Shown: positions 32,796 to 61,600 of the stretch, piece after piece
Layout of the letters: every line of letters begins with the position of its first letter
Numbering within the stretch: position 1 is the first letter of the stretch
Source: Prorocentrum cordatum
Taxonomy: Eukaryota > Sar > Dinophyceae > Prorocentrales > Prorocentraceae
Assembly (NCBI GenBank): GCA_963575745.1
Contig: CAUYUJ010017903.1
Coordinates: forward strand, 139,001-203,000
Length of the DNA stretch: 64,000 nt
Reading direction: 5' to 3'
The notes under the pieces: generated by a model
The model's input: the letters and a program-made list of their open reading frames with translations, nothing else
The model's database searches: none
What the model was told of the DNA's origin: nothing
Program-made: the position numbers and the translations under genes

Positions 32796-33440
32796 GTGCG
32801 AAGTGGGATTCGCGATGCGGATTGTTGAATATTATTACTTCTAAAGAATAATTATTGTTGGGCCCCCTGGTGCACGCCCCCCCTGCGCCGCCTAGGCCGC
32901 AGCTACATTTTCATCATTTTCGTGAGGAAGCCTCAGGTAAAACGATGTGATCCAGATCCGGTTGTTTTGTTGTAATCCGTTTTCCCTTGCAAAAAACACT
33001 ATAAAATGACATTTCTTGTTCTAATATAATCAAATTTCAAGAATCCCTTGCAAAAAATAAGGTAAAGTGGACATTCGCGCGCGCAAGACGAAATCCTTCC
33101 AAAAGCTTAGTGTTCGGAGCGATTTTAACATAAAAACATCAAAAAACCAATGGTTTTTCAACAAAAAAATGTCAAAATCTCATCCCGCGCGCTCTTGCGG
33201 ATTCGTAGGAAAACCAACACTTTTTAAACATTTCTGTCAAACGGGCTTTTGCGAGCAACTTTTTCGAACTTCTGCGACAACGGTTGCGCACCTGCCAGGG
33301 CCATCATCCCTGTCAAATAATACCATGCGGGACACATTCGTTTTTTCTTCGCGCGCGCACGCCGAAATCTCCAAAAACCATTGGGTTCTTAAGAATTTTA
33401 GCACCGCGCATCATAAAATCACACGAATCGCACCGTAGGT
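32796..33440 (+). repeat. Long dispersed repeat Q, copy 1
   Basis: Nearly identical in order and sequence to 60745-61328: ATTATTACTTCTAAAGAATA, TTTTCATCATTTTCGTGAGG, GCAAAAAATAAGGTAAAGTG, then ACATAAAAACATCAAAA. Internal 190-bp sub-repeats (CCAATGGTTTTT and GCGAGCAACTTTTT blocks) continue to 33600. Both copies have an open frame starting GTGGACATTCGCGCG (33067 and 61032), but without ATG or domain it is treated as non-coding. Confidence 0.8.
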
Positions 33441-33611
33441 CCTCGAAAAACACCTGCACGACTTTTCAAAATTTCCACCCGCGCGCGCTGTCCGAATCCT
33501 AAAAAAACCAATGGTTTTCCAACATTTATGTTACATGAGCTCGCGCGAGCTACTTTCGCACGCTCTTGCAACGGGGTTCGCGCGCCTGCCAGGGGCCATA
33601 ATCCCTTGCGG

Positions 33612-33740
33612 TTGCGCCATAGGTTGCGCCCTCGGCCGCCGAGAATAAAACGCCCCCCTATTGGTTGCGCCATAGGTTGCGCCCTCGGCCGCTGAGAATA
33701 AAACGTCCCCCTACTGGTTGCGCCATAGGTTGCCCCAGGA
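33612..33740 (+). repeat. 53-bp tandem repeat
   Basis: Two and a half copies of TTGCGCCATAGGTTGCGCCC-TCGGCCGC-GAGAATAAAACG, starting near 33612, 33665 and 33718. Confidence 0.85.
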
Positions 33741-33912
33741 GGCCTTCAAGAGGCCCCAAGAGCCCGCCGTGAGGACCCAATAAGCCCCCAAGAGGCCCCA
33801 AGATGCTTCCAAGAAGCCCCCCAAAGCCCCTCAAGAGGACCCCAAGCGGCGCCAGGAGGCTTCCCCCCTTCCCCAAGAGGACCCCAAGCGGCCCCAGGAA
33901 GCCTCCGACTGA
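33741..33912. repeat. AAGAGGCCCC array 5' of the Helitron-like cluster
   Basis: CCCCAAGAGG/CCCCAAGCGG words end 13 bp before the spliced-leader relic at 33925. Equivalent GC-rich arrays precede the second and fourth cluster genes. Confidence 0.65.
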
Positions 33913-33924
33913 TCACTGTCACAT

Positions 33925-33945
33925 CCGTAGCCATCTCGGATCAAG
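33925..33945 (+). other. Spliced-leader relic 1
   Basis: Matches the conserved dinoflagellate spliced leader at 18 of 21 positions. The first ten bases CCGTAGCCAT are exact, and the end reads GGATCAAG against GGCTCAAG. It ends directly before GTAT and lies 27 nt 5' of ATG 33972. Genomic leader relics are known to mark genes derived from trans-spliced, reverse-transcribed mRNA. Confidence 0.75.
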
Positions 33946-33971
33946 GTATCGCCTGTGTTCTTGGATGGGTC

Positions 33972-36879
33972 ATGGCTTTGTCGGCGAAAGCCCTTGACGA
34001 CAGTATGGCCCAGAGCTGTCGCGGCCTCCCTTGGCCGACTGCGAGAGCCCGTATTATTTGCATCAGGCGCTCGTTGCAAAGGGTATCCAGGTCAGTCACC
34101 AGGCGTGCAAGACTTGGTGGGGCAAATATCGGGTTGTGCCTGGCAAGGTTAGTATTTCTAGCGCCCAGGAGCTGGAGGAGCAGCACGGTTCTGCCATCCG
34201 CCACCTGGGCATCGAGTATAATACACCTTTCAAATTATGCGGGGCGCTCCGACAGTTGGATCCACCACTGTATGTGACAGATCAGGTCGCAAAGATGTGG
34301 CTACTGCAGTATTCTTCCAAAGAGACGCTTGTCAAAGTGCAGAACGCTGGCCATCTGGAGACCTGGTATGGAGAACGTATTCGCAAAGACATGCCCGAGG
34401 GGACTACTGACGGGGCCGTGTTGAAGCAGTGGCTCCTGGGACATTTATCTGTATCTGCTGACGCCAGGGTATGCCAGAAGTGGCTCAGCACGGAGTGGGG
34501 CGCCAAGGGAGCATTGAATACTGCCCAAGCTGTGGAGGAATGTATAGGCCAGCGTCTTCGACTCAATCAGTATCGGGAGAGCTTCGCCGATGAGGCCGCC
34601 GCGGAGGTCCTCTCGCAGCTTCTCTCGGAGAGCGACCCTCCCGTCGCTGTCAGCGGTATGGTTTTGAGGCAATGGTACGTGAAGTATCACCCTGACTCTG
34701 GACCTTTGCAGTATGACACGGCTGAAAAGCTCGACGCGGCACTTGGTGACCACATGCGCGCGGTATATCCAGGGCTGAAGTACCACACCTTGCATGCCGT
34801 GTTGCGTATGCGACGGAAAGCTGTCTTGGTGTCCCGAGGAGTGTTGAGACAGTGGTGCGATGCGTATGCGTCGGTGAGCTCTTCAGTGCAGGCGACGGCT
34901 TCATCCGCCCAGGCCGTCACCAGGCGTGTATTGAAGCGCCCGGCGGCGCAGGTCGCAGGCGGGGTATTGAAACGGCCAGCCGCCGCCGGATCTGCCCGCG
35001 TGGCCAAACGGCCTGCCGCGGTCGACTGGGAGGAGCCCGTATCGAAGCAGCAGGCCACGGCAGCTTCTTCCTCCACAGAAGTGGTTTGTATAAAGCTGCT
35101 GACGGGGGATGCTGTAGAGGCGGCATGCGGCAAGCGGTATCGAGAGCAGGTCTCCGACTTGGGCCTTGGCCTCACTTACCAGAATATGCAGGTGCGTCTG
35201 AAGGCCTGGGGGTATGAGGCGGGTCCATATGCCTTGCGAGAGTGGCTTTGCAAGTATCGACTCGGAGACGGTGCCAAACATGGCAATTGCGCCGTCTACG
35301 CGTTGTCGCGCAGGGACCTCCAGTACTGGTATCACGTAGAAGGCTTGAGGGGGCGAGCGCTGGTGGACAAGTATCGCGCGGAGACCGGGGTATTTGCACA
35401 TTGGGTCGCCCTGGAGAGGTGGCTGAAGGCGCCCTCCCAGCAGCTGGCAATACTGGAGAATGCTGAGGAGATACACAGCCACGTATGCGGGGAGTATGTC
35501 CTGGAGCAGCTGCAGAAGGGCGTCTCGGCCGAGGAGGTGAAAAAGGAGTTATTGGCGCAGTATCTCGTGGATTGCAGGACCACGCAGCGGCTCGTAGCGC
35601 ATCGTCGCTATCGCGAGCAACGTGGCGAATACTGGACCAGCGAGCACCTAGAGCAACAGGAGTGGGAGTTCTTGTATTCCTTGGTTTCTCTGGATAGCAA
35701 GCTCGGCCACAACTGGGCGGTTGGCTGTCGCGCCCGGGCTAGACCTGGTTTGGAGGCTGTGCGTGTATCTTTATGTCAGCGCTTGGGCGTGGCGGAAGAG
35801 TTGGCGCCTTTGCACAATCTATCGGTATTTTTTGGTGGCCACGAACGGCATGCCAAGTTGGCACTCGCGTATCCAGATGCCTTCGTATACAAGGGCGCGC
35901 TGCCAGGTCCTGTGGTGGAGGCCTACGAGAGGACCTTTTTGGGCCAGGTGCTGCCGAGGACTGCGCGCGCGTGTATCTCCGACCAAGAGCAAGGCTGGTA
36001 TGCGAGAGCTTGCAGCGTGGCGACAGCTGACGGTTGCATAGTATTCCCGAAAATGGCGGCGGACGCTTGTCTTATTGCTGCGTATGCCATGTTAAAGTGC
36101 CAGGAGGTATTTCAGCGACAGTCTTGGTCCATGTCATTACTCACCAGTATCCGAGCCACCTACAAGAAGCAGTATAATCTGACAGATTTTGCGTTTTGGG
36201 TGTGCTACGGGAGTTGGTCCGCTTGCGAGGCCTGCGGTTCGTTCTTCTTCAATGACGAGTATTTCTCGAACCGTGTATATCAGGATCGTAGCACGTCGGA
36301 ACAACCAGACATGTTGGCGGCGTATCGTCGGCAAGTACCGCAGGACCCGGTGGTGCACGCCTGTGGCCAAGTTGGTATATCTTCGAGATGGTGGTATAAG
36401 CCAGGCATGTACACGCCCGTGGTTGCCAGCTGCCCTTGCTGTTCTGGTAAAGAGACTCCTCTCGAGAAGTTCAACCGCCGCATGCAGAACCATGGGCAGG
36501 CCCTCAAGGTTGCAAAGACGTCGGAGCTGTATAGGATCCCCTTGGCGACGAAGTCGGGCTACGAGGCAAAGGAGCGCATCACCTGGCCTCGATATTCGTT
36601 TCGGCAGTTTTCGCTGGACCGCAGCACTGGGCCCTGCATGCACGAGATGACCCTCGACGAATGTCGTGCTCTGAGCATCGTCGTCTTGAGGACCTCCGTG
36701 CAGCAAGAGAGGTATGGCGCTGCGCACCAGTTCAACTGGAAGAAGGTGGGTCTCTCGCGCGCGTACTTCAAGAAGGACCTGGTCTGCGAAGCGAGTATGC
36801 CTGCCGATCGGCGCAAGGCTGCATTTCATTTCTTGATGGAGCACAGCAAGTATTACCGCAGCTTTCTGACGGAGCAGAG
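33972..36879 (+). CDS. Helitron-like RepHel, exon A (W-x3-Y modules, KRPAA repeats, Cys-rich segment)
   Basis: ATG 33972 begins MALSAKALDDSMAQSC in frame 3. The long frame, open from 33998 and recognisable as ADCESPYYLHQAL from 34034, is frame 2, so a one-base shift near 34015-34030 is likely. The N-terminal ~470 residues hold about nine modules ending in a Trp-x3-Tyr-like signature (CKTWWGKY, AKMWLLQY, LRQWYVKY, LRQWCDAY, LREWLCKY), probably helix-turn-helix-like DNA contacts. Residues ~297-330 repeat KRPAA, a basic motif that may serve nuclear import. A Cys-rich part follows (CEACGSFFF ... CPCC, 36223-36440), as expected before Helitron Rep domains. The exon ends in KYYRSFLTEQR. It is not seen in ordinary host genes of this window. 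Confidence 0.7.
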
Positions 36880-37131
36880 GATCCGCGCGAGCAGGGGCGC
36901 CGCGGTCGCCCCCAACCCACCCCTCCCCAAAGAAAAAACCCACCCTCCCTCAACCCACCCCTCCCCCAACCCACCTCTCCCCAAACTCACCCCGGTCGCC
37001 CCGAACCCGCCCTCCCCCAACCCATCCCCCCCAAAAAAAACACGCCGGCAACAAAAACCACATCAACACAAACGCTATTCATTTTCTGGGGGCGCATGAC
37101 AGGTATTACAGTAGCTTTTTGACTCCCACAG
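36880..37131 (+). other. Candidate intron 1 of RepHel (GA donor, AG acceptor)
   Basis: 252 nt. Both boundaries read AG|GATCCGC (36878-36886 and 37130-37138). The upstream exon text KYYRSFL is also echoed just inside the 3' end (GTATTACAGTAGCTTTTTGAC, split here at 37103-37123). Removing it preserves frame 2 and deletes the stops at 37097 and 37112. The body is C-rich with AACCCACCCCTCC repeats. GA donors and AGG-flanked introns occur in dinoflagellates. The duplication suggests intron birth by segmental duplication or an introner insertion. Confidence 0.55.
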
Positions 37132-37740
37132 GATCCGCATCGAGAACCGCAGCTCCTTAAATCTTTCCTCCTACGACCTCTTTGTTGTCATGAAAGGTAT
37201 CGAGTGTGCCATGTATCCCGTCTTGTATCCGACTACGGACTTCACTGATACGGGTATTATGGAGCACTACTATGCCCAGACCCAGGATAGCACGAATCGG
37301 GTGGTATCCATCGGCCTGTCCTGGACTCGGAAGGTGCTGTCCAGTGCCCGTGTATATGGCGAGCAGCGGGATCTGCCGTTTTTCCTGTACGAGAAGCATC
37401 TGGCGAATAAGTATTTCAATGCGCAAGTTCGTGCCAAGAGCCTCGGCGTCACGGGGGACGTTATGACACGAGATTCGCAGGCCTCTACGGGGTATTGGGA
37501 GATTGTGCAAGACTCCCTCGCTGATCTGGTGCGTATCATGCTCGTGCGCTGCTACGACGAGAAGAATTATGAGGCCCTGTATCAGCACTGCCGCACTCTC
37601 CGGGGACAGGTATGGCTGTGCGCGTTTCCGAATTTGTTTATCACCATCGCGCCCGCGGAGTGGAAGTTCCCGAGGCCGTATTTCATGGAGCCGTATCTTC
37701 GCTGTATTTTTGCTGGTGCCTATATGATGTCACTCCATAT
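37132..37740 (+). CDS. RepHel, exon B (Helitron-like N domain and first Rep motif)
   Basis: Frame 2 continues: NLSSYDLFVVMKGIE, MYPVLYP, then RGQVWLCAFPNLFITIAPAE with WKFP (37606-37675). The last corresponds to the FFITFT-xxW-P motif at the start of Helitron Rep catalytic domains. The exon ends MMSLHM. Both neighbouring introns are multiples of three, so the gene reads through in one frame. Confidence 0.7.
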
Positions 37741-38019
37741 GTACTTCCTGGTTCGCTGTATCTGGTTGTTCTTGGCGAACCGCTGGGGCCACAGGTTCGT
37801 TTCTTGTATAACACAATTCCAGGAATTGTTTTGCGAGTTTCTCTCATGTCATATGTATCATGTACCCCATATATCACATATAACAACTGGATGTGTTCCA
37901 CAAGCTGCCCCAAAAATGTGACCAATCTCTTCTTCGAGTTTGTCTCATGAGTATCAGACGCATCGTGTATCATATGTATCATGTCACTACAGTGTGCTTA
38001 CATAAAGAACAGTGTCCAG
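37741..38019 (+). other. Candidate intron 2 of RepHel (GT-AG)
   Basis: 279 nt, starting GTACTTCCTG and ending GTGTCCAG, followed by exon GTACTTCATC, so a GTACTTC direct repeat sits at both splice sites. Removal joins LHM to YFIVYEW and keeps frame 2. The middle (37840-37985) is a degenerate copy of the 101-bp satellite at 44560-46020 (CCCCAAAAATGTGACCAA, TTTGTCTCATG, CATATGTATCATG). Confidence 0.65.
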
Positions 38020-39115
38020 GTACTTCATCGTTTACGAGTGGTGTATGAAGACCGAGTACCAGGGCCGTGGCACCCCGCACTGGCACATTTGCGCGTGGGT
38101 TGTATGCTTTGGGCTGTTGCAGAATCTCCAAGGGCGCACTGGTACGGCTGTCGTGTCGGCATTCGTCAAGTTCCTCTCGCTGGTATTCTGCGCCGAGATA
38201 GATGTTCAGATAGGCAACGGCCGTTTGAACTACATCTCCGGGTATGTGGCGAAGGACCATGATGCCGTCGACGTGGGGCTCGGCGAGTATGTGCAGAAGA
38301 ATGCAAACAGCTCCTGGCTGACCGCGTATCGCTTGCTCAGCAAGAGCAGCCCGTGCTTGCCGGAAGTGGCGATCCGTATGGCGCAACTGTCGGAATTTGA
38401 GCGGTCCTACTCCCATGTTTTGCTGTATCCACCGCAGCCTGCAGCCATGCTGAATTATGACGGGCGGCAAGGAAACTTTTCCTCGAGGATGTATGGTTTC
38501 TATCTTCAGGAGAAGAGGGAGCAGCTGGTCGCAGGGACTCCCGTATCGGAGAGTTTCTTGGTATGGCACCGTGGCAGGGAGTATGACACCTCGAACCACT
38601 GCGTACAGTTCCGTGGCGGCAGACATCAGCAAAGGTATGCGTCCACGCAAGTGGTCGCCTGCAGGTACTGGTACGAGCTGACCGACGGTTATTGGGGCCA
38701 GCATTCACTGACTGTGCTGCCACATGTATACGCTGCACAATTACTCCCTCGGACGTTCAAACACCTGGACAGTATGAAGAACTTCGTGGGCATGATCGAG
38801 TATCTCATGTCCTGGCAGTGGTCCGACACTGCTGGTATCGTGGAGACGTCGTGTGAATTGAAATTCCATAATCATGCGCTGCCGATGCGAGTGGGTGAGG
38901 ACGGCCAGATACTGTCATTCGGCTCGGAGTATACTGCTGGAGTGTCTGTATTTGCCAATGATAGGGCAGCATTCGAGTACCTGCTCTCGCTGGCCCGACG
39001 CGATCTGCAATTTCGAGGTATGCGCGATGAGCGTGTCGGCTGCTTCGAGCAGAAGCAACACGCGAATTTTCTGCTGTATATGCGTGTTGCTCAATGCGAT
39101 AACGAGCCAGAGTAA
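38020..39115 (+). CDS. RepHel, exon C part 1: HUH endonuclease with paired tyrosines
   Basis: Begins YFIVYEWCMKTEYQGRGTPHWHICAW. The HUH metal-binding triad is His-Trp-His at 38078-38086, preceded by the RGTPH signature of Helitron Rep. The nucleophile region reads GRLNYISGYVAKD, with tyrosines at 38231-38233 and 38243-38245 (Y-x3-Y) and a following Lys, as in Y2 rolling-circle enzymes. It should nick and religate one DNA strand during rolling-circle transposition. The frame ends DNEPE at TAA 39113-39115. The very next codon continues the conserved Rep-to-helicase linker, so this stop is probably a nonsense mutation or readthrough site and not a true gene end. Confidence 0.8.
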
Positions 39116-40741
39116 GAGTGCCTCCGGCAGGCGTGGGATGTCTTGAATAGGCCGAAGTATCAGCAGCGCACCTGGAGTCCCGAGCAGGCTGACGCCATCG
39201 AACGGGTCAAGAAGGGTGTATCGCTGGAGGACGAGGAGGAGAAGCAGAACAGTAAGCGTTTCTTGTATATCAGTGGACCACCAGGCAGTGGGAAGACGGC
39301 AGTATTGCTGGAGCTGGCCATTTGGGCATGTGAGTCTGTTCAGGTTTTGATCGTGTGTCCCACCGGGTATCTCGTGCACCAGTACAAGTCCAAGCTGCCA
39401 GACAGACCTGGTATTGAGAACATCCGAGTGGATACCATGCAAGGAGTCCTGAAGTATAAGAGGGCCGGGAAGGACGGGAAGGTCCGCTGGGCCCCACCCT
39501 CGGCTTTGAGAGGTATTGACTTGATTCTTTGCGATGAAGGTAGCCAGTATGAAGATCAGGAATGGATGCGTTTTTTCGCCGCGGTGCGGGAGCAGCCGCA
39601 TAAACCCTTCACTGGTATCGTGGCCGATTTTAAGCAGTTGCAGCCAGTATTGAGCGGGGGGCAATGCGAGCACTTCTGCAACCAAATGGACAAGGTTGAC
39701 TTGAAGACAGTGTATCGCACCGCAGACCAGCAGCACCTGGTTTTCCTGAACCGTATGCGCGAGGCTCAGCCAGATCGGGTGTGTTTGACAGAGTATTTTG
39801 GCGACCGGCACTGGCAGCATGAGTCCTTGGAGGCTTGTGTTGAGCGCGGTATGGCGTTGGCGGCGGAGAAAGGACATCCGTTTTCTTGGCTGACGTGTAC
39901 GAACGCAGGCTCGGCAGAGGTATGCAGAGCGGCTCTGGCATTACTCGGCATTAGTGAGGCCGATCTGCAAAAGGGTGGGTATTCCGATCCCACCACGAAG
40001 TCCAACTTACGCATTTTGGCCAGACCTGGTATCGTGATTCGCCTCAGTCGGAACTTTGACAAACAGCGAGGCTTTGTCAATGGGGCGTTGGCCACGGTAT
40101 GCGAGTCGCTTCGTGGAAACTCTGTGTTTACAGCCAGGCTGGTGGGCACGGGCAACATGGTATTGGTGCACCCCATCGAGGAGAATGGGGAGATCTTCCT
40201 GCCCTGCTGCTACGGGTATGCGACCACGGTGCGTCGAGCGCAGGGTGCGGATCTCTTTCACGGCTGTATTTACTTCGAGCAGAAGAAGAGAGTGGCCACG
40301 AGAGGGTATGGCTACGTTGCCTGCAGTCGCTTTAAGTCCCGCGAGGGCTGCTATGTATTCGGCAAGCTCCGCCGCAGTGACTTCCTCCCGGCTGGCCCTG
40401 AGAAGGCCGGCGAGATTCTGGAGCGTGGCTATGACTCGGTATCGTCATCTGACGACGAGGGGAAAGGCTTGGAGTATGCCTGTGCAGATCAAGGGGAGTA
40501 TGACGCGGACCCTGTTCTGTCCATGGATATGGGCAACAATCTCTTGGACTTCCTCGTGAGCACAGAGGATACGGCAGATGTATCCAAGACCGAGTGCCAA
40601 CGTATCCTGGCAGAGTTTGCTGCAGGTGCCAGTGCGGAGGCTGCCGATGCGCCAGTGTATGAAGAGCTTCCAGTGAGGGAGGAAGTGTGGGGCGAGAACG
40701 GTGAGCTGCTCGTATACGGCGGCACGGCAACGCCGGAATGA
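39116..40741 (+). CDS. RepHel, exon C part 2: Pif1-type helicase
   Basis: Same frame as Rep: after the TAA it reads ECLRQAWDVLNRPKYQQRTW, and RTWSPEQADAIERV is the Q-motif region. Walker A is SGPPGSGKT (39272-39298), Walker B LCDEGSQ (DE at 39533-39538), motif III GIVADFKQLQP, and RAQG and GYVACSRFKSREG are motifs V and VI. These are superfamily 1 Pif1/RecD-like helicase motifs, fused to Rep in Helitrons, which unwind the donor strand 5'-3'. There is no ATG shortly before Walker A in this frame, which supports readthrough or fusion. Stop TGA 40739-40741. It contains 30 or more GTAT tetramers. Confidence 0.8.
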   Translation, partial: ECLRQAWDVLNRPKYQQRTWSPEQADAIERVKKGVSLEDEEEKQNSKRFLYISGPPGSGKTAVLLELAIWACESVQVLIVCPTGYLVHQYKSKLPDRPGIENIRVDTMQGVLKYKRAGKDGKVRWAPPSALRGIDLILCDEGSQYEDQEWMRFFAAVREQPHKPFTGIVADFKQLQPVLSGGQCEHFCNQMDKVDLKTVYRTADQQHLVFLNRMREAQPDRVCLTEYFGDRHWQHESLEACVERGMALAAEKGHPFSWLTCTNAGSAEVCRAALALLGISEADLQKGGYSDPTTKSNLRILARPGIVIRLSRNFDKQRGFVNGALATVCESLRGNSVFTARLVGTGNMVLVHPIEENGEIFLPCCYGYATTVRRAQGADLFHGCIYFEQKKRVATRGYGYVACSRFKSREGCYVFGKLRRSDFLPAGPEKAGEILERGYDSVSSSDDEGKGLEYACADQGEYDADPVLSMDMGNNLLDFLVSTEDTADVSKTECQRILAEFAAGASAEAADAPVYEELPVREEVWGENGELLVYGGTATPE

Positions 40742-40859
40742 TCTGTGACGTATGGTGGCGGACGTTGAAAATAAACGTACACACGCGCATGTGTGTATCA
40801 TCGTCTCCGGTCCGCTTCTACGTTGGAGTCCAAGTGTCTGCCTTCATAGAAAAAAAAAT

Positions 40860-41330
40860 GTCCTCCAAGAGGGCCCCAAGAGCGCCCCCAAGGCTCCCAA
40901 GAGCGCCCCAAGAGGGTCTGAAGAGGCCCCCAGGAGGTCCCAAGAGGCGCCCAACAGGCGCCCAAGAGGCGGCCAAGAGATCCCCAAGAAGCTCCAAGGG
41001 GCTCCCCGGGGCACCCAGGATGCCCCACGAGGCCCCCGGGTCACGCGAGGAGGGCCCCAAGACGACCCAAGAGGCTTCTACTTGCCCAAGATTCATCCGA
41101 GTAGACTCCGAGAGGCATTCAAGAGGCCTCTGGCTCTTCTGATACCTACTCCTCATCCTTCTTCTCCCTCCTTCCCCTCTCATCTCATCATCACCATCAT
41201 CACCATCACCATCACCATCGCCACCATCAGGAAACCTCCACCATCACCAACGCCACCATCACCATCATCATCACCATCATCACCATCACCACCAATCATC
41301 ACCATCACGACACAACAACAACAACGATGT
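40860..41330. repeat. AAGAGGCCCC array and CACCAT tract
   Basis: CCCCAAGAGC/GAGGCCCC words (40870-41100), then (ATCACC)n at 41185-41310 and ACAACAACAACAA at 41312-41325. This fills the gap between RepHel and the second spliced-leader relic. Confidence 0.7.
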
Positions 41331-41343
41331 CTCTGTGTGTTGT

Positions 41344-41364
41344 TCATAGGCACTTTGGCTCAAG
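41344..41364 (+). other. Spliced-leader relic 2
   Basis: 17 of 21 positions match the dinoflagellate spliced leader, with the last eleven, TTTGGCTCAAG, exact. It lies 34 nt 5' of ATG 41398, the likely start of the next gene. Confidence 0.7.
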
Positions 41365-41397
41365 AGGGGGTTATTATTGGCCGCGTCTTGCCTTGGC

Positions 41398-42741
41398 ATG
41401 GACTCCGCAGGGCATATTTTCTTGCTCTCCTTTGTATTACTGCGTTTCACCAGAGGTCAGGCAGGAGTACCTGTCGCATGTGACTACCTTTTGGATCAGT
41501 GGAGTGTATTCGTTGAGAACTTCGATTCATTTTGTTGTGGACTCGTGCGGCACTGCGAGGCAGTATGCAAAGAGAGGGGATGCTCGTATTTGGCCCATCG
41601 GGAAGGTTTGCACATGGCGCATTCTGGTTTGAACTTCATTCGCACTCTTCGCAGGGCTCGCATACGACGGCGCCTTGTTGCATTTGCGGAGAAGTGGGCG
41701 CACGTAGTATCAGGGCTTCAGCGTCCCCGTGTGGTGGGCGTCTCGGTCGCGAGCGCTGACATCATGGCCATCGGGGACAGTATCCCGGACTATGTGGCCG
41801 TGGCTGTTCAGAAGAACCAGGTGAAGATGGCAGGTAAGTATAACAGCATGGACTGTATGCGGTGTTTTATGCACATGCTTGAGTTTTGCATGGGCTGCGC
41901 GCCCACGGAGTATACCGAGGAGCTGCGTCAGTGGTTTCTGAAGCGGCAGTGTCGGAAGTATGGACGCAATGCTGCGGCGGAGCTCGCGTATTTTGGCGTG
42001 GTGTCCTGCGACAGTATGACCACAGCATTGGGTCGTATGAGGAAGGCTCTAAACACCACGTCTCAAGTGAGTGCTGCGACCATGCATGTATTGTTCTGCG
42101 AGACGCGGCAGGCTATCAATAGGTATTCGCTGCATGGTCTTTGGTATCTCATTGAGCAGCATGACAAGAGGAAGTCTGTGCGGGCAAATGTTTCGCGTGT
42201 CCGACATGGGCTCGCATACAGTGTATCCACGCTTCCTTACACAATTCAGGTTTTGGAGGAGATCCGCAGCTGTGTGGGTGTATCACTCGCTGTGCTGCGG
42301 AAGTTACCCTCCAAACGCGCTGGCGGACCTTGGGAGGTGGCGTTTCAGATGGGTCGCCGCCGTTTGTGTCCCAAGGTTGAATTGGATGGCATTCCAGAGT
42401 TCCGTGTGCTCGCGAGTTGTCTGAGCGTTGTGACTCAGAAGGTCCAGCACAATCAGCAGTATCGCGGCTTGGTCAAGGCCGCGAAGGGTCTGGGTATCAA
42501 GTACGCGAAGTCGTATACTAAGAAGAAGCTCGCGGTGCTGGTGCAGCGCGGTATGCAGAAGCCTGCAGGCACGGGGGCGCGGAAGAGGAGTTACGAGGAG
42601 CTGGTATCCGCAGTGCACGCTCGCGGCGGCTCTGAGTATGAAAGAATGAAAATGCAGGGAAGGTGGATCACCAGACGATTATCCAAAGTCAAGTTGGAGG
42701 CGTTGCTGGCTGAACCCCGAGGGCGGTGTTCATTTGTATAG
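41398..42741 (+). CDS. Cluster gene 2, unknown, intronless, possible SAP-like tail
   Basis: Chosen start ATG 41398 (MDSAGHIFLLSFVLL) because it is the first ATG after the leader relic; the frame is open 5' of it. 447 codons without interruption. No family recognised. Visible features are a hydrophobic N-terminus, several Cys pairs (CMRCFMHMLEFCMGC, residues ~156-170) and a basic C-terminal third. The C-terminal third has two segments of the form YRGLVKAAKGLGIKY-TKKKLAVLV and YEELVSAV...RRLSKVKLEALL, each resembling a SAP or SAP-like DNA-binding helix-extension-helix. The 3' tail encodes GRCSFV then TAG. Same strand, same GTAT density as RepHel, and no introns: it looks like a processed-cDNA-derived accessory gene. 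A DNA-binding role is inference only. Confidence 0.6.
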   Translation: MDSAGHIFLLSFVLLRFTRGQAGVPVACDYLLDQWSVFVENFDSFCCGLVRHCEAVCKERGCSYLAHREGLHMAHSGLNFIRTLRRARIRRRLVAFAEKWAHVVSGLQRPRVVGVSVASADIMAIGDSIPDYVAVAVQKNQVKMAGKYNSMDCMRCFMHMLEFCMGCAPTEYTEELRQWFLKRQCRKYGRNAAAELAYFGVVSCDSMTTALGRMRKALNTTSQVSAATMHVLFCETRQAINRYSLHGLWYLIEQHDKRKSVRANVSRVRHGLAYSVSTLPYTIQVLEEIRSCVGVSLAVLRKLPSKRAGGPWEVAFQMGRRRLCPKVELDGIPEFRVLASCLSVVTQKVQHNQQYRGLVKAAKGLGIKYAKSYTKKKLAVLVQRGMQKPAGTGARKRSYEELVSAVHARGGSEYERMKMQGRWITRRLSKVKLEALLAEPRGRCSFV

Positions 42742-43084
42742 TTGCATGTTGTCTGACACAGTGGTCGACCAGAAAAGTATGAAAGAAGAGCATATAGCAG
42801 CAATGACATTCACATATACATACATACACACATGTAAACATACTAGTTCGACGCGCATAGCCATTCTTTACACATAGACCTTACCTACACAGTCACATGC
42901 ACATACACATGCGTACGTCGAGACATGCACTCAGAGTTACATACGTCGTATGAATGACATATAACATTTCTACATGGATACACAATGCAGAAATACATAC
43001 AGACATACATGCATGCATAGAAAGAGTATTTTCACGTACCTGTTCCAAAAAAATGTGACTTGTTGAGCACACGGTGGCTCCCTA
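42742..43084. other. Intergenic AT-rich ACATA repeats
   Basis: CATACATACACACATG-type words (42805-43015) with ATGCATGCAT near 43008. No gene. Confidence 0.6.
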
Positions 43085-43119
43085 CGCGTGTATCTCCGAC
43101 AAAGAGCAAGGCTGGTATG
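43085..43119 (+). pseudogene. RepHel exon fragment
   Basis: GCGTGTATCTCCGAC-AAGAGCAAGGCTGGTATG is a near-exact copy (one substitution over 34 nt) of RepHel exon A at 35969-36003 (ACISDQEQGWY). Here it runs straight into GTATGTATCATATATACC, intron-like satellite text. In the full gene the same point reads GTATGCGAGAGC and stays coding. Confidence 0.75.
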
Positions 43120-43420
43120 TATCATATATACCGACATGTTGCGTCTCCAAACTGGCCCAAAAATGGGGGCTGTTGGGGTCATCTTGGGGTGGAGGACTAG
43201 AAGGGTCTGTTCGAGTTCACTCTCTTGAGGCCATCTTCGGGGCCTCTCGGGGTCGTCTTGGGGGGCCTCCAGGGCTATACTGGGGTCCTCTTGGGCCGTC
43301 TTTGCTCCTCTTTTTTGGGCCTCTTGGAACGTCTTCGGCGCTTCTAAGACGGAAAAGGCGATAATGTTAAAATGCTATGTGTTGACTTTGTCTCATGTGT
43401 ATCATACGTCTCCCATTGCA
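43120..43420. other. Satellite-like and GC-array spacer before cluster gene 3
   Basis: Starts with GTATGTATCATATA satellite text, passes through a TTGGGG-CCTC array (43160-43340) and ends TTTGTCTCATGTGTATCATA...CCATTGCAG. Its ends look like those of an intron that captured an array. Confidence 0.5.
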
Positions 43421-43505
43421 GCCATATAATCTCACAGCTGGCGCGGCAGTACCAGTCTTCCCACTCGGAAGTATATTCCCTGCGGTTTCGATCCAATCGG
43501 TCGCA

Positions 43506-44341
43506 ATGAGCCTCGACAGTGGTATGGCCACTGACTTCGCGATGTTGGTTCCAGGGACGCAACCGGGCGCCCCGGCCTCAGCGGAGAAGGCGAAGGACCA
43601 GAAGAAGCGGGAGTGGCTGAAGGTATTCGAGACGTTGCCGTCGCAGTTGCTCAACGTATACGGGCCTTCCAAGTTCGCGAAGTTATCGGACAAGCAGGTA
43701 TGGAACGAGATGCAGGAGCCGCTGAAGAGTGGGGCCGCATGGATGTCGGAGATGTGCAGCAAGGAGCCGGAGCGGAGGGGTGTCGGTATTAACCGTTTCA
43801 TTCACGCGATGAAGACCTTCTGCGAGTATCAAAACGATCCCTCGGTACAGGCGGCGAACAAGGCGGTATTGAATCCGACGATGTATGAGGAGTTCTACGA
43901 AGAGATTGAGGAGATCCTGCCGTCCTTGCAGTATTGCCTGGCACCCAAGAAGCAGTATGAGAAAAGGGGTGCTGCCGCTCTGCGCGCGAGCGGTATGGAC
44001 GAAGCAGTGCTGCCGGACACGAAGACTGAGCCGGCATTGGACCAGCATGCGAAGAAAGTGTATGAGTGGCTCGACAAGGGTAAACTTTCGCGAGTGCGTA
44101 TGATGGCCCATTGGCAAAGCTGTGGGGGTTGGCATTCGTGGCTCAGTGTCACCACAGGGCCGCCACCTGTTTCAGGTATCACGGGAACAGTTTTCACGGA
44201 GCTGGTCCAGAGCAGCAGGAGGTATCACTTCAAGAGTTCCAGGCTGCTGTGAAGGTCCGTCATGCGTTGGGCCACAACGGTATTGACGTGGAGGCGGTGG
44301 GCTCACAGGGCTCCGCCGTCAACGATTTCGGCACTGCCTGA
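43506..44341 (+). CDS. Cluster gene 3, unknown, interrupted near 44100
   Basis: ATG 43506 gives MSLDSGMATDFAMLVPGTQP. The frame is open 5' of it to the CAG at 43419, so an upstream exon is possible. Frame 3 is convincing to about 44095 (WLKVFETLPSQLLNVYGPSK, FYEEIEEILPSLQYCL, AKKVYEWLDKGKLSR). Frame 2 then reads GPEQQEVSLQEFQAAVKVRH and ends VNDFGTA at TGA 44339-44341. Between them, 44094-44175 has GTGCGTATG at one end and CTGTTTCAG at the other, but the simple GT-AG removal does not join the two frames. A frameshift or a different splice is needed. Helical, Lys/Glu-rich, no recognised domain. Carries the GTAT signature, and no leader relic was found upstream. Confidence 0.5.
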
Positions 44342-44540
44342 TGGCACGGTATATGAGCAATTTTCCAGAGTCGTGCGTGCACACTGGGGAGGCAGGGGCT
44401 GCATGCATTTAGACCAGGGTATTGCTTCTCTGCATCTCGGGAGCGTATATATGAAGTGCGCGGGAGTGGCAAAACAAAATGTCCCAAATAATGAGACCAC
44501 CTGGTCTGTGGGTGTATGTGCCCCACAAACTTGTTAGTGA
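44342..44540 (+). other. 3' flank of cluster gene 3
   Basis: Still GTAT-rich (44350, 44420, 44447). Short frames only. Ends at CTTGTTAGTGAG-TTCAGTTGTCC, a motif repeated at 46030-46055 and 46510-46530 around the satellite block. Confidence 0.4.
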
Positions 44541-44559
44541 GTTTCAGTTGTCCTATAAT

Positions 44560-46020
44560 GTTTTTCTCTCATGCTTATCATATGTGTCATGGGAAATATG
44601 TATCATATATAACAAATGCATGTGTCCGAAATTTGCCCCCAACATGTGATCAATTGTTGTGTGTCTTTGTCTCATGTCTATCACATCATGTGCAATCTGT
44701 ATCATCTATATCAAATGCATGAGTCTGAAATTTGTCCCAAAAATGTGACCAACTGTTGTGTGTCTTTGTCTCATGTCTATCATATGTGCCATGTGCAATA
44801 TGCATCATATATAGCAAGTGCATGTGGACGAAATTTGCCCCAAAAATGTGACCAACTGTTGTGTGTCTTTGTCTGAGGTCTAGCATATGTATCATGTGCA
44901 ATCTGTATCATATATACCAAATGCATGTGTCTGAATTTTGCCCCAAAAATGTGACCAACTGTTGTGTGTCTTTGTCTCATGTCTATCATATGTATCATGT
45001 CAATATGACTCATATATGACAAATGCATGTGTCTGAAATTTGCCACAAAAATGTGACCAACAGTTGTGTGCTTTTGTCTCATGTCTATCATATCATGTGC
45101 AATATGTATCATATAACAAATGCATGTCCCCGAAATTTGCCCCAACAATGTGACCAACTGTTTTGTGTCTTTGTCTCATGTCTAATATATTCATGTGCAA
45201 AATGTATCATACATAACAAATGCATGAGGCCGAAATGTGCTCCAAAAATGTGACCAACTGTTGTGCGTCTTTGTCTCATGTCTATCATTTGTATCATGTC
45301 AATATGTATCATGTATGACAAATGCGTGATTTTGAAATTTGCACCAAAAATGTGATCAACTGTTGTGTGTATAACAAATGCATGGTGTTGCCTCAAAAAT
45401 GTGACCAACAGTTGTGTGTCTTTGTCTCATGTCTATCATATCATGTGCAATATGTATTATGTATAACAAATGCATGTCCCCGAAATTGGCCCCACAAATG
45501 TGACCAACTGTTGTGTGTCTTTGTCTCATGTCTAATCTATTCATGTGCCATATGTATCACAATAAGGAATGTATGAGGCCGAAATTTGCCCCAAAAATGT
45601 GACCAACTGTTGTGTGTCTTTATCCCATGTCTATCATATGTATCATGTGCAATATGTATCATGTATGACAAATGCGTGTTTCTGAAATTTGCACCAAAAA
45701 TGTGATCAACTGTTGTGTGTTTTTGTCTTAGGTCTATCAGATGTATCATGTGCAATATGTATCATATATAACAAAGGCATGTGTACGAAATTTGCCCCAA
45801 CAATGTGACCAACTGTTGTGTGTCTTAGTCTCATGTCCAGGAAATCAATGGCAATATGTATCATCTATATCAAATGCATGAGTCTGAAATTTTCCCCAAA
45901 AATGTGACCAACTGTTGTGTGTCTTTGTCTCATGTCTATCATATGTATCATGTGCAATATGTACCATATATAACAAATGCATGTGTCTGAAATTTGATCC
46001 AGAAATGTGACAATATGTTG
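44560..46020 (+). repeat. 101-bp satellite, about 14 copies
   Basis: Unit order: GTGACCAACTGTTGTGTGTC, TTTGTCTCATGTCTATCATA, TGTATCATGTGCAATATG, TATCATATATAACAAATGCA, TGTGTCTGAAATTTGCCCC, AAAAATG. GTGACCAAC recurs near 44747, 44848, 44951, 45051, 45149, 45249, 45499, 45599, 45806 and 45905, with shorter variants. Single units lie in RepHel intron 2 and at 43120-43140. It is flanked by CTTGTxAGTGAG-GAGTTGTCC repeats, suggesting that the block is one very large intron or an insertion. Confidence 0.85.
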
Positions 46021-46062
46021 ACTAACCTGCTTGTGAGTGCGAGTTGTCCTATCAGTGTGAGA

Positions 46063-46500
46063 ACCCCGTTTTGAAACACGAGCCGCCCTCAACCTCATCC
46101 TCCCTCTCTGGTCCCCCCCAGCCCCTAGAGGCCGCGGGCCCCGCCTCTCACGGCGCCCCCCTTCGGGTCCCTCCAGTGCGCCCCATCGGGAACTCAAGCG
46201 AGAGCACTGTTTTGAAACAGGAGCCCCCCTCAACCTAATCCTCCGCGCCCTCTCTGGTCCCCCCCAGGCCCTAGAGGCCTCGGGCCCCGCCTCTCACGGC
46301 GCCTCTCCTCGGGCCCCTCCAGAGCGCCCCATCGGGAACTCAAGCGAGAACCCCGTTTTGAAACAGGCCTCCCTCAACCTTATCCCCCTGGCCCACCCCG
46401 GCCCCCAGAGGCCTCGGGCCCCGCCTCTCACGGCGCCTCCCCTTGGGTCCCTCCAGAGTGCCTCATCGGGAACTCTTGTTTTGAAACAGGAGCCGCCATC
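46063..46500 (+). repeat. ~140-bp tandem repeat, 3.3 copies
   Basis: TTTTGAAACA(C/G)GAGCC-CCCTCAACCT starts near 46065, 46211, 46353 and 46477, each followed by GGCCCCGCCTCTCACGGCGC and CATCGGGAACTC. It is the GC-rich array preceding cluster gene 4. Confidence 0.85.
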
Positions 46501-46607
46501 AACCTCACCTGCTTGTGAGATTGAGTTGTCTGATCAGTTTGACACATGTATGTGCTTCGTTTCCGTTCGTATGGACTTTGGCACTTTCCCACAGCATTAT
46601 GTGTGTG

Positions 46608-46628
46608 CCTTAGCCATTGGGGCTCCAG
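46608..46628 (+). other. Spliced-leader relic 3
   Basis: 17 of 21 positions match the spliced leader (TAGCCATT exact, then GGGGCTCCAG against TTGGCTCAAG). 58 nt 5' of ATG 46687. Weakest of the three relics, supported by its position. Confidence 0.55.
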
Positions 46629-46686
46629 TCGTATATTGCTTTTCGTATCTCTTTCCATATTTGCACGCGCGTCCGTATTGTTGGCA

Positions 46687-47832
46687 ATGGCAGGGCAGTG
46701 GGACGAACAGACTGGGGAGTATATCCCATCCAACGAGGAGGTGGCCGAGGGTATGAGGCGCTTGTCTGTGTCACCCGGCGGGGACGGATTGGTATTCCAA
46801 TGGCTCAAGGCTCAGGAGAGACAACAGTACCACATAGCTAGGGGGGTGGCCGCTCACTCTTCGAGCTGGCGGTTCCTGCCGGGCATGCCTCCAGAGAGTG
46901 CCTGGAACGAGGTGCCACCAGCTCGAGGGGAAGGCGCGGCCACCCCCTTAGCTGGTGGTATTGGTACTTTTTTCTCTCCTGAAAGGTGCTGCGCGAGACC
47001 ACGTGGTTCGCGACCGCAGTGTATTTTCCGTGTATGTGGCAGGGACTCACGGGTGTATGCCTGCGTGTGTCGACCGCGGAGAGCACGCGCCGTTCAAAGG
47101 AGAACGGTATGGTCGAGAACCAGCGGCGTATGGGAGGCATCGAGACCCCAGAGTGGATGGCGTTCGCTGTATACTTCTACCCCGGCTTGGTATTCGGCAA
47201 CTTTGATGGTTTCAAAGATCCAGCCGCGCAGTATCTGGGCGCACTTGCGGAAGTATTCAATCGGCTGTGCACCCAAGCTGGTATAGCGAACTGGAGTTCG
47301 CACGTATTCGTCCGACCCGGCGGCTGGGTGTATGCTGGCTTGCGCAGGCTGTTGCAGCTCCTGCGTATTCACGTGCATTCCGAGGTGGTATCAGGTCTGT
47401 CATACAGGCGCATGGCGAGCCTGGATGTATTTGTGGCAACACACACGGCATCCATGGGCATGGAGCCGCCATGTATGGCTCTGTGGAATGCCTCCCACGA
47501 CGTCAAGGATGGTATCACCTTGTTCCCGAAGCAGGATCATTGGGTGGCACATGCCTGTATGGCGTTCTTTCGGGCAGTCCGAGTATGGGAATGTCATGGA
47601 TTACCGTGTGGATCTGGGTATGCCGGCGCATGTCCAGGGCGTCCTGGCGGTATTGGCGCCCCACGGACGCACGGGCGATGTGTCCGCGAGGAGGCGCATC
47701 GGCACCATGCTGGGACACTTGGCCCCTGATGTATGGGTGCCAGGAGCGCAGCTTGCAGTATTGCGCCCGATGCGTGCCATTAGGGACAGGCGCATGCCAG
47801 AAGACGATGAGCACACAGACTCGTCTCTTTAG
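46687..47832 (+). pseudogene. Cluster gene 4, unknown, two frame changes
   Basis: ATG 46687 begins MAGQWDEQTGEYIPSNEEVA (frame 1) and is sensible to about 46955 (WRFLPGMPPESAWNEVPP). Frame 3 takes over from about 46986 (LRETTWFATAVYFPCMWQG, GGIETPEWMAFAVYFYPG, YLGALAEVFNRLC, WSSHVFVRPGGWVYAGL, DVFVATHTASMGMEPPCMAL) to about 47575. Frame 1 then resumes (YGNVMDYRVDLGMPAHVQGV, MLGHLAPDVWVPGAQLAVLR) to TAG 47830-47832. No family recognised. It is not clear whether the changes are frameshift mutations, very small introns or assembly errors. 46958-46985 looks like a 28-nt GT-AG unit but has the wrong length to restore frame 3. GTAT-rich throughout. Confidence 0.5.
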
Positions 47833-47916
47833 TATGCTTCCAGAGCACGTATGCGTCCGCCTCGCCTTGTCCTGCTGCTCCTCCTCCTCCTCCTCCTCCT
47901 CCGGCGGGGCACCCAT

Positions 47917-48165
47917 GGGGGCAACCATCGGGGCCACCATCGGAACAACCATCGCGGCAACCATGGGGACAACCATCGGGACAACGATCGGGACAACCAC
48001 AACCATCAGGACAACCATCGGGACAACCATCGGGACATCCATCGGGACAACGATCGGGACCACCATCGGGGCAACCATCGGGAGAACCATCGGAACAACA
48101 ATCGGGACAATCATCGGGACACTCATCGCGACAATTATCGGGACAACCACAACCATCAGGACCTC
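47917..48165 (+). repeat. CATCGGGACAAC 12-bp repeat
   Basis: ACAACCATCGGG-type units in tandem, with GCAACC, CACAACCATCAG and CTCATCGCG variants. Asp/Asn/His or Thr/Ile-rich frames are artefacts. Confidence 0.9.
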
Positions 48166-48477
48166 CAACCAGAGAGAGGTAGTCACGTGTATTTCGTCGA
48201 CGAGTGAGCCAGTATTGCACATTGAGGCCGGAACGAGAACCACAGAACAAGAATGAGCATATATCGTCTCACAACAACGGAAACAAGTCCTGTGGTATGC
48301 TGGCGCCACGCACGTGATACCAGTCAAAATAAGGGTCTTGGCTTGTGTGGTACAGAAACGTTAAAACGTCGGAAAACGGTACGCGTGCCCATTGTTGGAA
48401 CAGGGGTATAAGTCGTATACTAAGCTAGTTTCCACAAGATGTTACCACAAGAAGTCATTGTAACCATGCGCCAGTGT

Positions 48478-48690
48478 AGTAGCCAAGGTCGTCCGCAGGC
48501 CACGAAGTGAAGTGTCCGAACGTCATAGGGCGGGAAGCTGGGTGTGGGTGGTGGCGAAGAGTCGTTTGGAAACTTGGTAGAGCTTGAACCGGCCCCCCCA
48601 CAAAGTGGGGGTATTGCCCGCCTCCTATGAAAACCCTGGCACTGGTGAGAACGGAGTGTCCCCAGTCTTAAATGATTGTTGTTGTTGTTG
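48478..48690 (+). repeat. 215-bp dispersed repeat T, copy 1
   Basis: Matches 61354-61556 almost base for base (CACGAAGTGAAGTGTCCGAA, GCGAAGAGTCGTTTGGAAA, CACAAAGTGGGGGTAT, GTGAGAACGGAGTGTCCCC). Both copies lead into a (TTG)n tract. CCCCCCCACAAAGTGGGGG forms a small hairpin. Confidence 0.85.
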
Positions 48691-49208
48691 TTGTTGTTGA
48701 ACTGTCACTACTAAAGAATAAGTGTTGCGGATCCCCCCCCCTCTGGTGCACATTGTATGTTTCCATTGAAGTGCCCCTCCCGGCGCTCGCACCCTGTTTT
48801 TTTATCAGGATAAGTCTTCCTCCTCAAACTGTGCCCCTGGTCCCCGGTTTACAACAACAGCAACAACAACGGCTCCCGTTGGATATTTCCTCTAAATTTA
48901 CTCCTGTCCCCCGCTCCCGCTGAGACTTCCTCGCGATTTACTCAAGATTCGCGCTCCTGCCTGAGATGTCGTCGCAACTTACTCAGGCGCCGCGCTCTTG
49001 CCCCTCAGGAATCGCGCGTTCGCTGGGGACTTCTCAAATTTACGTAGGAATCGATCTCTTGCTGGAAATGGTTTGGCGAATCACGCAGAACTCACGAAGA
49101 ACGATATATACCACCCAACAGTGGTATGATCGAAAACGAAGAGGGCGGGCAACGAGGGTTCGGGAAGTGCACGCTGAATGACAGTCCAGCAGATAATAGC
49201 GAACAGTC
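48691..49208 (+). repeat. Repeat unit R1 (short)
   Basis: Order: (TTG)n end, ACTAAAGAATAAGTGTTG, CCCTCTGGTGCACATTG, TTACAACAACAGCAACAACA, GACTTCCTCGCGATTTACTC, CAGTGGTATGATCGAAAACG. Same scaffold as the ~1.05-kb units at 61556-63655, but lacking the CTTCGTGGCC section. Confidence 0.7.
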
Positions 49209-60079: not shown

Positions 60080-60744
60080 TCGTTGGCCCCTTTTGCTGCC
60101 CTCCACTGCCCCGCTGTCCCGTCGCCGTTTGTGGTCCCGTCACTGATACTAATGCCCTTCGTAGCCCCCGATCGCTCGCGCGCCCGTCGTGCCCCTATAT
60201 GCATGCCCTTCGTGGCCCCGCTGTCGCCTTCGTGGCCTCCCCTCGCTGCCCTTCGGGCCCCATGCTGCCCTTCAGCGGCCCCATCCCCGGCCTTTTTTTT
60301 TGCCCTTTGTGCATGGTTTTTTATGCCCTTCGTGGCCCACGCTGGCTCTTCCAACGATTTACTTAGGAATCGCGCTATCGCTCGAGACTTCTTCGCGATT
60401 CATGCAGGACCCACGCTTCAGCAACCCGCCTGCTCGACCTCGTTGCCTGGGCCCGCCTTCCCGACCTGCCCGTTATTGGTCTGCCCACCCGATTTGCCCG
60501 TCTGGTTATACCACTTGTTTTCTGCTCCTCGCCCCCCTGAGGCTAATTTCTTTCGTGTTCCATTATTCTCCCGCCCCCTTTCCACCCGTCCTCTCTTCCC
60601 TTATTTTAGGGGTTGCACTAAATACACGATATATCCCCAAGGGGGCACAATCGAAGACGACGAATGCGGGTACCGAGGGTTTGGGATACACAGATTGATT
60701 AGCACGTGAGCAGATAGGAACGAAGTTGTTAACATGGTTGTTGT
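60080..60744 (+). repeat. Repeat unit R4 (3' half)
   Basis: CTTCGTGGCC section, TTTACTTAGGAATCGCGCTA, CCCCAAGGGGGCACAATCGA, GAGGGTTTGGGATACACAG, then (TTG)n at 60730-60750. Leads into long repeat Q copy 2. Confidence 0.65.
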
Positions 60745-61328
60745 TGTTGTTGTTGAACATTATTACTTCCAAAGAATAATTATTGTTGGGGCCCCTGGTG
60801 CACGACCCCCCCGCCGCGCCTAGGCCGCAGCCTCATTTTCATCATTTTCGTGAGGAAGTCTCAGGCAAAACGGGTTGGGTCCGGATCCTGTTGTGTTGTT
60901 ACGATTCGTTTTCCCTTGCAAAAAATAAGCTAAAGTGGACTTTTCTCTGTTTCTTAACATAAAGTATCGAAATTGTGAATTGATAACATAATAACCAACT
61001 TCAAGAATCCCTTTGCAAAAAATAAGGTAAAGTGGACATTCGCGCGCGCAAGACGAAATCCTTCCAAAACCTTAGTTTTCGTAGCGATTTTAACATAAAA
61101 ACATCAAAACACCAATGGTTTTTCAAAACAAAATTGTCAAAATTTCATCCCGCGCGCTCTTGCGGATTCGTAGGAAACCCAACACTTTTTAAACATTTCT
61201 GTCAAACGGGCTTTTGCGAGCAACTTTTTTCGAACTTCTGCAACAACGGTTGCGCACCTGCCAGGGCCATCATCCCTGTCAAATAATACCATGCGGGACA
61301 CATTCGTTTTTTCTTCGCTCGCGCACGC
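60745..61328 (+). repeat. Long dispersed repeat Q, copy 2
   Basis: Partner of 32796-33440. It ends where repeat T begins, so Q, T and R are juxtaposed here. Confidence 0.8.
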
Positions 61329-61353
61329 CGTCGTCGTCGGCCGCGGGGCCCTG

Positions 61354-61553
61354 AATAGTAGCCACGGTCGTCCGCATGCCACGAAGTGAAGTGTCCGAAC
61401 GTCATAGGGCGGGGAGCTGGGTGTGGGTGGTGGCGAAGAGTCGTTTGGAAATTTGGTAGAGCTTGAACCGGCCCCCCCACAAAGTGGGGGTATTTCCCGC
61501 CTCCTATGAAAACCCTGGCACTGGTGAGAACGGAGTGTCCCCACGTGCTAGTA

Positions 61554-61556
<3 letters not shown>
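61354..61556 (+). repeat. 215-bp dispersed repeat T, copy 2
   Basis: Partner of 48478-48690. In both places it directly precedes a (TTG)n tract and an R unit. Confidence 0.85.

Positions 61557-61600
<44 letters not shown>

Follow-up and report, generated by a model that had tools for sequence, protein, structure and literature searches.

A coding-strand GTAT ladder through the genes of a Helitron-like transposon of Prorocentrum cordatum, tentatively read as a mark on its sense RNA

Canonical Helitrons begin with TC at the 5′ end, finish with a hairpin and CTRR at the 3′ end, and insert between A and T. Short self-marks, oriented and over-represented in genes, are known from bacteria in the form of DNA uptake sequences, Chi, and KOPS, which are 8-12 nt long, occur about once per kb or less, and are spread genome-wide. 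The dispersed packaging signals of RNA viruses are degenerate stem-loops, and the periodic An/Tn clusters in germline genes of C. elegans follow the 10-bp helical period, lie largely in non-coding sequence, and are linked to escape from silencing. Here, we describe a pattern found in 64,000 nt of the dinoflagellate Prorocentrum cordatum (contig CAUYUJ010017903.1, positions 139,001 to 203,000 of the forward strand; this whole stretch is the window), where the tetranucleotide GTAT recurs on one strand through the genes of a Helitron-like element, forming what we call a ladder.

Judged from its sequence, the carrier of the ladder is a recently amplified Helitron-like transposon. As in Helitrons and Helentrons, an HUH Rep (motif GRGTPHWH) and a PIF1-type helicase lie in one frame, the family is multicopy and near-identical, and there is a short non-autonomous derivative. 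The element differs from them by the ladder itself, its extra genes, and its (TTG)n sites, and the canonical ends described above are not established for it. In the genome, searched over 4,128,499,153 bases in 21,875 contigs, the helicase open reading frame (ORF) has 155 candidate places, and all 40 that were scored are at 98-100% identity. Like uptake sequences, Chi, and KOPS, the ladder is short, oriented, and over-represented in genes, but it is made of 4 nt, at about 17 per kb, in one element. It resembles the An/Tn clusters in being a sequence-wide pattern over genes, but it is a strand-specific 4-mer. Packaging signals of single-stranded RNA viruses, as described in excerpts of two papers, consist of many sites along an RNA that are read by one kind of protein (PMC6281560, PMC4751978); the ladder, by contrast, is a bare, context-free 4-mer without folding preference in the genes of a DNA transposon. 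The accessible parts of the open-licence literature on dinoflagellate Helitrons, spaced transposon motifs, and GUAU binding yielded no described counterpart.

In positions 33946-48419, a direct count gives 243 GTATs and 37 ATACs, the reverse complement, on the + strand. At the rate of the rest of the window, taken without the 58-59.2 kb stretch, about 23 GTATs would be expected. An earlier note on this DNA had reported GTAT about every 50 nt here, and its counts and spacings are correct when the last site is included: 39157-40795 of the helicase holds 32 sites, or 33 with the one starting at 40795 (gaps 22-84 nt), and 34003-36041 holds 39, or 40 with the last (gaps 11-114 nt). Recounting also returned the note's approximately three ATACs in the helicase part (3) and its five GTATs in the ORF at 24484-27519 (5), whose name, LINE RT, is taken over as putative. 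Across eight coding pieces, GTAT is the extreme tetramer, with a z of 14.0, the runner-up reaching 5.3. A longer motif is ruled out, as the flanks are near background, the biggest departure being a shortage of T four bases upstream (12% vs. 23%). A second ladder in the window is ruled out as well: above z 10, GTAT alone is evenly spaced outside tandem arrays. As minor observations, the other GTAT peak in the window, at 58.3-58.6 kb, is a TATG microsatellite, and TCACCA, a 6-mer without GTAT, also stands out (7 vs. 0.9 expected).

The ladder is independent of the encoded proteins and of codon use. Synonymous codons were shuffled within each of six ORFs, 2000 times per ORF and with existing codon use kept, and GTAT exceeded every shuffle in all six (observed 52, 16, 21, 31, 25, and 15; shuffle means 29.1, 8.8, 10.5, 14.0, 11.8, and 7.9), giving a sum of 160 for about 82 expected. 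Thus, the check that had been named beforehand as a possible refutation does not reproduce the excess. ATAC is neutral in the same shuffles (18 observed, about 16 expected). Of 87 tyrosine codons preceded by G, 73 are TAT, as are 17 of the 42 others; the valine codon GTA is followed by T in 46 of 54 cases; and sites occupy each of the three codon phases while the reading frame stays intact. A further test listed all the places in seven coding pieces where a silent change can create a GTAT; of these 300 places, 177 are in use, compared with 5 of 39 in the putative LINE-RT ORF. Both tests uphold the earlier judgement that a protein-level cause is unlikely. With respect to relatives, tyrosine at GTAT is conserved like other tyrosines (27/46 vs. 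27/50) and valine somewhat less than other valines (8/22 vs. 52/96). Since conservation at GTAT is near that elsewhere, the ladder appears to have been laid mostly by silent change, with the protein little bent. An origin in ordinary codon or amino-acid bias, AT content, or assembly error might appeal to tyrosine, which makes up 5.1% of the compared part of gene 1 and 3.6% and 4.8% in the relatives L097 and L103, and to the silently possible sites, which are 1.4-1.7 times as frequent in gene 1 here as in these two. Nevertheless, the shuffles, the neutral ATAC, the background levels in sisters and in the putative LINE-RT ORF, and the many separate copies refute it and leave it practically no probability; codon or amino-acid bias, in particular, is ruled out by the six ORFs all lying above their 2000 shuffles.

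Spacing is controlled as well. The silently possible sites are used according to their distance to the nearest other GTAT: 8 of 53 at less than 12 nt, 33 of 67 at 12-21 nt, 32 of 53 at 22-30 nt, 53 of 68 at 31-45 nt, and 51 of 59 beyond 45 nt. Because of this dependence, it is coverage, and not count alone, that is under control. The coefficient of variation (CV) of the gaps is 0.29-0.69, the helicase being the most even part (0.29), compared with 0.68-0.83 for equal numbers of sites drawn from the silently possible ones. Pooled gaps below 22 nt number 22, for 45.2 ± 4.1 expected and a minimum of 30 in 4000 draws. Under this null, evenness has P < 0.006 in five of the seven pieces and 0.0075 in a sixth, and it is not significant in gene 2 (0.24); under a plain uniform null, the CV is non-significant in two of seven segments, gene 2 (0.07) and the longer segment of gene 4 (0.09). 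No pair of sites is closer than 10 nt, and pair distances are low up to about 35 nt and flat beyond, which rules out strict periodicity. Of the recurrence every 50 nt or so that had been proposed, the enrichment, the orientation, and the avoidance of short gaps stand, with the refinements that 50 nt is no strict period and that some stretches within the span lack GTAT. The rule is one GTAT within reach, without a fixed period.

The ladder begins at a short sequence that we take to be a relic of the dinoflagellate spliced leader (SL). The first GTAT lies directly 3′ of it in ten of ten copies, in agreement with the start that had been reported. Upstream, 32822-33945 (1124 nt including the relic) holds no GTAT in the window. 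Summed over ten copies, there are 2 GTATs in about 9.0 kb upstream of the relic and 129 in about 6.1 kb downstream, where three of the upstream stretches are partly non-homologous, one is mostly N (N uncounted), and the copies are not independent. The 511-nt spacer between genes 1 and 2 has none, and a single one lies in the final 252 nt of the element. Untranslated stretches that look transcribed do hold sites, five each in 44253-44558 (306 nt), 46476-46685 (210 nt), and 48150-48428 (279 nt). The ladder's strand, its presence in every codon phase and in untranslated sequence, its beginning at the SL relic, and its absence from the 5′ end together point towards sense RNA.

Among the four causes that the earlier note had listed, a motif at the mRNA level is favoured by the start after the SL relic, by the lack of GTAT in the 5′ end and in the spacer, and by the background level of a short relative. 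The single-strand DNA mark used in transposition fares worse. A coat or helicase that reads GTAT on the rolling-circle intermediate would suit a strand-specific ladder in an element that encodes an HUH Rep and a helicase, but the 1.1-kb 5′ end and the spacer move with the element and hold no GTAT. Furthermore, a deletion derivative made of the two ends has one GTAT per end piece, so that mobility seems independent of GTAT, and related Rep families lack the ladder; such a mark is thus disfavoured and very unlikely. An intron-related cause finds no support, as ORFs run through the sites, and full pairing with U1 is ruled out because GTAA, GTAG, and GTAC are used too little and no excess of GTAA precedes the sites.

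Our preferred reading, held tentatively and at somewhat below an even chance, is that the ladder is a mark on the sense RNA, in which a GUAU about every 50-90 nt would be recognised by a protein with 4-nt specificity. We infer the acting RNA, the protein reader, and the benefit from the pattern described above. Selection in one Helitron-like lineage would have placed GUAU in all four genes, leaving hardly any stretch of the mature gene 1 message longer than about 90 nt without it. The reader would be an RNA-binding protein whose sequence-specific footprint is 4 nt, perhaps KH- or RRM-like and encoded by the host or by the element, and it would bind the array by avidity. Every 50-90 nt of the message would then be within reach of bound protein, which fits the distance-dependent use of sites. 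As a result, the message might be recognised as the element's own, giving Rep and helicase a cis-preference, or it might be shielded from host RNA surveillance. A bare 4-nt word would fit one KH domain because single KH domains typically bind four nucleotides, according to an excerpt of a paper in which dinoflagellate control is also said to be mainly post-transcriptional (PMC12787238). The basic product of gene 2 is our guess for a candidate reader. A bolder version, which we find rather doubtful, is a family-specific four-letter barcode through all transcripts with an element-encoded reader (gene 2 or gene 4), whereby own RNA would be told from that of the host or of rival transposons by motif density alone. 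One known mRNA mark of dinoflagellates, N1-methyladenosine (m1A), is ruled out, since it prefers NNCA in the accessible part of the source (PMC11549093).

The main rival to a mark on sense RNA is a polar mark on double-stranded DNA confined to transcribed sequence, and it is in this limited form that the DNA modification of the earlier list survives. Here, GTAT on the coding strand would guide base modification (5-hydroxymethyluracil, 5-hmU, or N6-methyladenine, 6mA) or a chromosomal protein, and the genes would be kept active. Orientation can be read on duplex DNA, and the changes among copies, counted over 30 helicase loci in 38018-40800 with the window copy included, are of a kind that a modified T might give. 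T>C and A>G are the predominant kinds and fall in GT-R contexts on both strands, with changes in 13 of 67 GTG, 12 of 54 first Ts of GTAT, 12 of 29 TAC, 10 of 37 CAC, and 1 of 12 GTA outside GTAT; the excess may reflect modified T. In the accessible part of a paper on 5-hmU in Breviolum, an association with repeats is suggested and 1980s reports of a TA/TC preference are cited, but the paper itself finds no sequence preference (PMC11071213). Besides, the hot context, GT-R, is wider than GTAT, ATAC is neutral on the same strand, and there is no evident reason for such a mark to begin at an SL relic. On balance, we consider a DNA mark unlikely.

A mutational or copying process, such as editing followed by retroposition, or gene conversion, might also write GTAT without selection. 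The SL relic and the A-run after gene 1 suggest that gene 1 once passed through RNA, and the SL relics with this A-run suggest that RNA copies entered DNA. Editing of RNA in P. cordatum is described in an excerpt of PMC10666404, and at nine places in 37643-40800 up to 8 of the 30 copies have a GTAT that the window copy lacks. In 37643-37900, exchange is seen, and eight places have gained GTAT, each in 1 to 8 copies. In 38018-40800, however, differences from the window copy are nearly all losses, at many sites, with one gain in one copy. As site use also depends on the distance to the next GTAT, and as sites occur in all three codon phases with the frame kept, we regard this origin as highly improbable. 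Mutation pressure in fact opposes the ladder: T in GTAT shows C in at least one of the 30 copies at 19 of 108 positions, compared with 38 of 524 other Ts (P 0.0015). Since present changes mostly destroy GTAT in this way, mutation bias is not the source of the ladder. In ORF1, the gaps of 114, 135, and 183 nt of the window copy contain GCAT where 2-5 of 7 aligned rows have GTAT, at 35599 (2 rows), 36480 (4), 36576 (3), and 36636 (5). When sites present in at least two rows are considered, no gap exceeds 93 nt in 34800-36880 or 94 nt in 38018-40800.

The ladder is absent from the sister families examined. A Rep-motif pattern that excludes the first codon of the window family matched 17 places in the genome, with none for the reversed control; 14 encode Rep relatives, with Rep pieces 40-61% identical, and 3 look like chance. 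The relatives belong to families B (10), C (3), and D (1), and their fourteen loci (3 kb each) carry 1.3-3.3 GTAT per kb. Silently possible sites are used at 8 of 61 in L097 (family B) and 6 of 62 in L103 (family D), compared with 89 of 156 in the corresponding part of gene 1 here. No ladder of another tetramer was found in the four of the fourteen loci that were analysed for it (L097, L103, L104, and L105), where the best codon-shuffle z was 4.1, compared with 8.2 for GTAT over a comparable length of the window element. Neither gene 2 nor gene 4 had a relative at E < 0.1 in the flanks of a single B copy and a single D copy. A Rep pattern matched 29 loci of viral_contigs, none of them GTAT-rich and with short or weak matches, and a search for relatives in viral_contigs (by protein and SL pattern) and genome_contigs gave nothing useful. 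A 9-nt tandem repeat with many ATACs breaks up the family D helicase (L116:1000-3500).

Several observations weigh against a mark on sense RNA. Single GTATs are not better conserved among copies than other sites, so the effect per site would be weak or many copies dead. Gaps of 166-179 nt persist in genes 2 and 4: the 179-nt gap of gene 2 is filled at two places, each in one of four copies (four of five stretches aligned), and the 166-nt gap of gene 4 is unfilled in the sole copy aligned across the gene (of five stretches). Sites also occur in stretches that may be absent from mature RNA, with 22 in the 1453 nt of the 103-nt array and 4 in the 183 nt of intron 2, for 1 in the 252 nt of intron 1. 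Most of the element's internal GTAT-free sequence consists of simple repeats (a 146-nt array, a 12-nt array, and most of the spacer) and proves little; the 5′ end is the non-repeat exception, yet other constraints may act there. Predicted folds expose GTAT no more than comparable tetramers (0.19 vs. 0.22), which rules out a preference for unpaired RNA. Finally, the proteins of the element matched no RNA-binding family at the cut-offs used.

If true, the sense-RNA reading would mean a new mode of self-marking for a mobile element, by a bare tetranucleotide at limited distance along several genes and with no single binding site. This mark would overlie the protein code mostly through silent change, and it would offer a clean handle on how dinoflagellates discriminate self from non-self RNA. 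Because near-identical copies, GCAT ghosts, and ladder-free sisters are found in one genome, the reading is directly testable.

Table 1. Features of the Helitron-like element and its surroundings (positions in the window)
Feature	Position	Strand	Basis or remark
Whole Helitron-like element, ends approximate, at (TTG)n	32822..48680	+	Junction stretches of other copies
5′ terminal region, no GTAT	32822..33924	+	Count
SL relic, first GTAT directly after	33925..33945	+	Sequence; same letters and GTATCGCCTGTG in 10/10 copies
GTAT ladder, 243 sites	33946..48419	+	Counts, codon shuffles, silent-site test
Gene 1 exon: ORF1, leading into Rep at C-terminal part	34031..36879	+	Relatives align
Intron 1, 252 nt, 1 GTAT; each border carries the direct repeat AGGATCCGC	36880..37131	+	Frame and repeat; splice sites inferred
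Gene 1 exon, Rep part	37132..37836	+	51%/53% identity over 219/228 aa to L097/L103
Intron 2, 183 nt, GT-AG, AT-rich repeat, 4 GTAT	37837..38019	+	Sequence and frame; splice sites inferred
Gene 1 exon, HUH Rep motif GRGTPHWH; in-frame TAA 39113-39115	38020..39115	+	Sequence, relatives
PIF1/RecD-type helicase, frame shared with Rep	39143..40741	+	AAA_30 and PDB PIF1 matches
A-run after last gene 1 GTAT, possible poly(A) relic	40850..40858	+	7-11 A matched in 23/30 copies
Gene 1-gene 2 spacer, reaching into second SL relic, no GTAT	40850..41360	+	Count, 511 nt
Second SL relic	41344..41364	+	Sequence; identical in 10/10 copies examined
Gene 2, basic protein	41377..42741	+	71 K+R, 34 D+E; candidate reader
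Gene 3	43506..44252	+	Conserved in family B (34%, 1.6e-29), ladder absent there
103-nt tandem array, 22 GTAT	44559..46011	+	Sequence
Gene 4, frame broken, dense GTAT	46546..47832	+	Sequence
3′ part of gene 4 unit, last GTATs (5)	48150..48428	+	Count
Short non-autonomous relative, two element ends only	60737..61646	+	1 GTAT per end piece

The element outlasts the ladder on both sides (about 32822-48680 vs. 33946-48419). Its ends were placed from 20 junction stretches of 10 other copies, and the 5′ end near 32822 is seen in two of them, L069 and L078. Of the ten 3′ alignments, five terminate within (TTG)n at 48699, two continue into a similar neighbour, and three copies are without a 3′ match. 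A C/G hairpin lies about 60 nt before the 3′ end, and no CTRR end is common to the seven 3′ junctions read. Among these junctions, the border after GTGTCCCC varies, with three versions. Two elements stand head to tail in L069, with 17 nt between the 3′ end of the first and the second.

The description of the cluster as Helitron-like is upheld for Rep, by its motif and relatives, and for the helicase, which matches AAA_30 (4.2e-12) and PIF1 in PDB (2.3e-05). The Pfam matches of Rep are weak and below the cut-off (PF23343, E 0.0033-0.0037; PF14214 Helitron_like_N, E 0.16). At the joint between Rep and helicase, the window copy has the TAA at 39113, and L097 and L103 are open through it. The frame of these two relatives is also open through the region of intron 1, so this intron may have been gained in the family of the window element; it holds a diverged copy of the end of the preceding exon. 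AlphaFold models made without alignment had a mean pLDDT of 44 for gene 3 and 46 for the N-terminus of ORF1 and were not used. The latter region (34031-35000) contains weak internal repeats of the form VS..V...W...Y, with a best score of 62 for a null maximum of 61, and a stretch rich in KRPAA. A 35-nt stretch of ORF1 (35968-36002) recurs in near-identical form upstream of gene 3 (43085-43119), beside an inferred intron.

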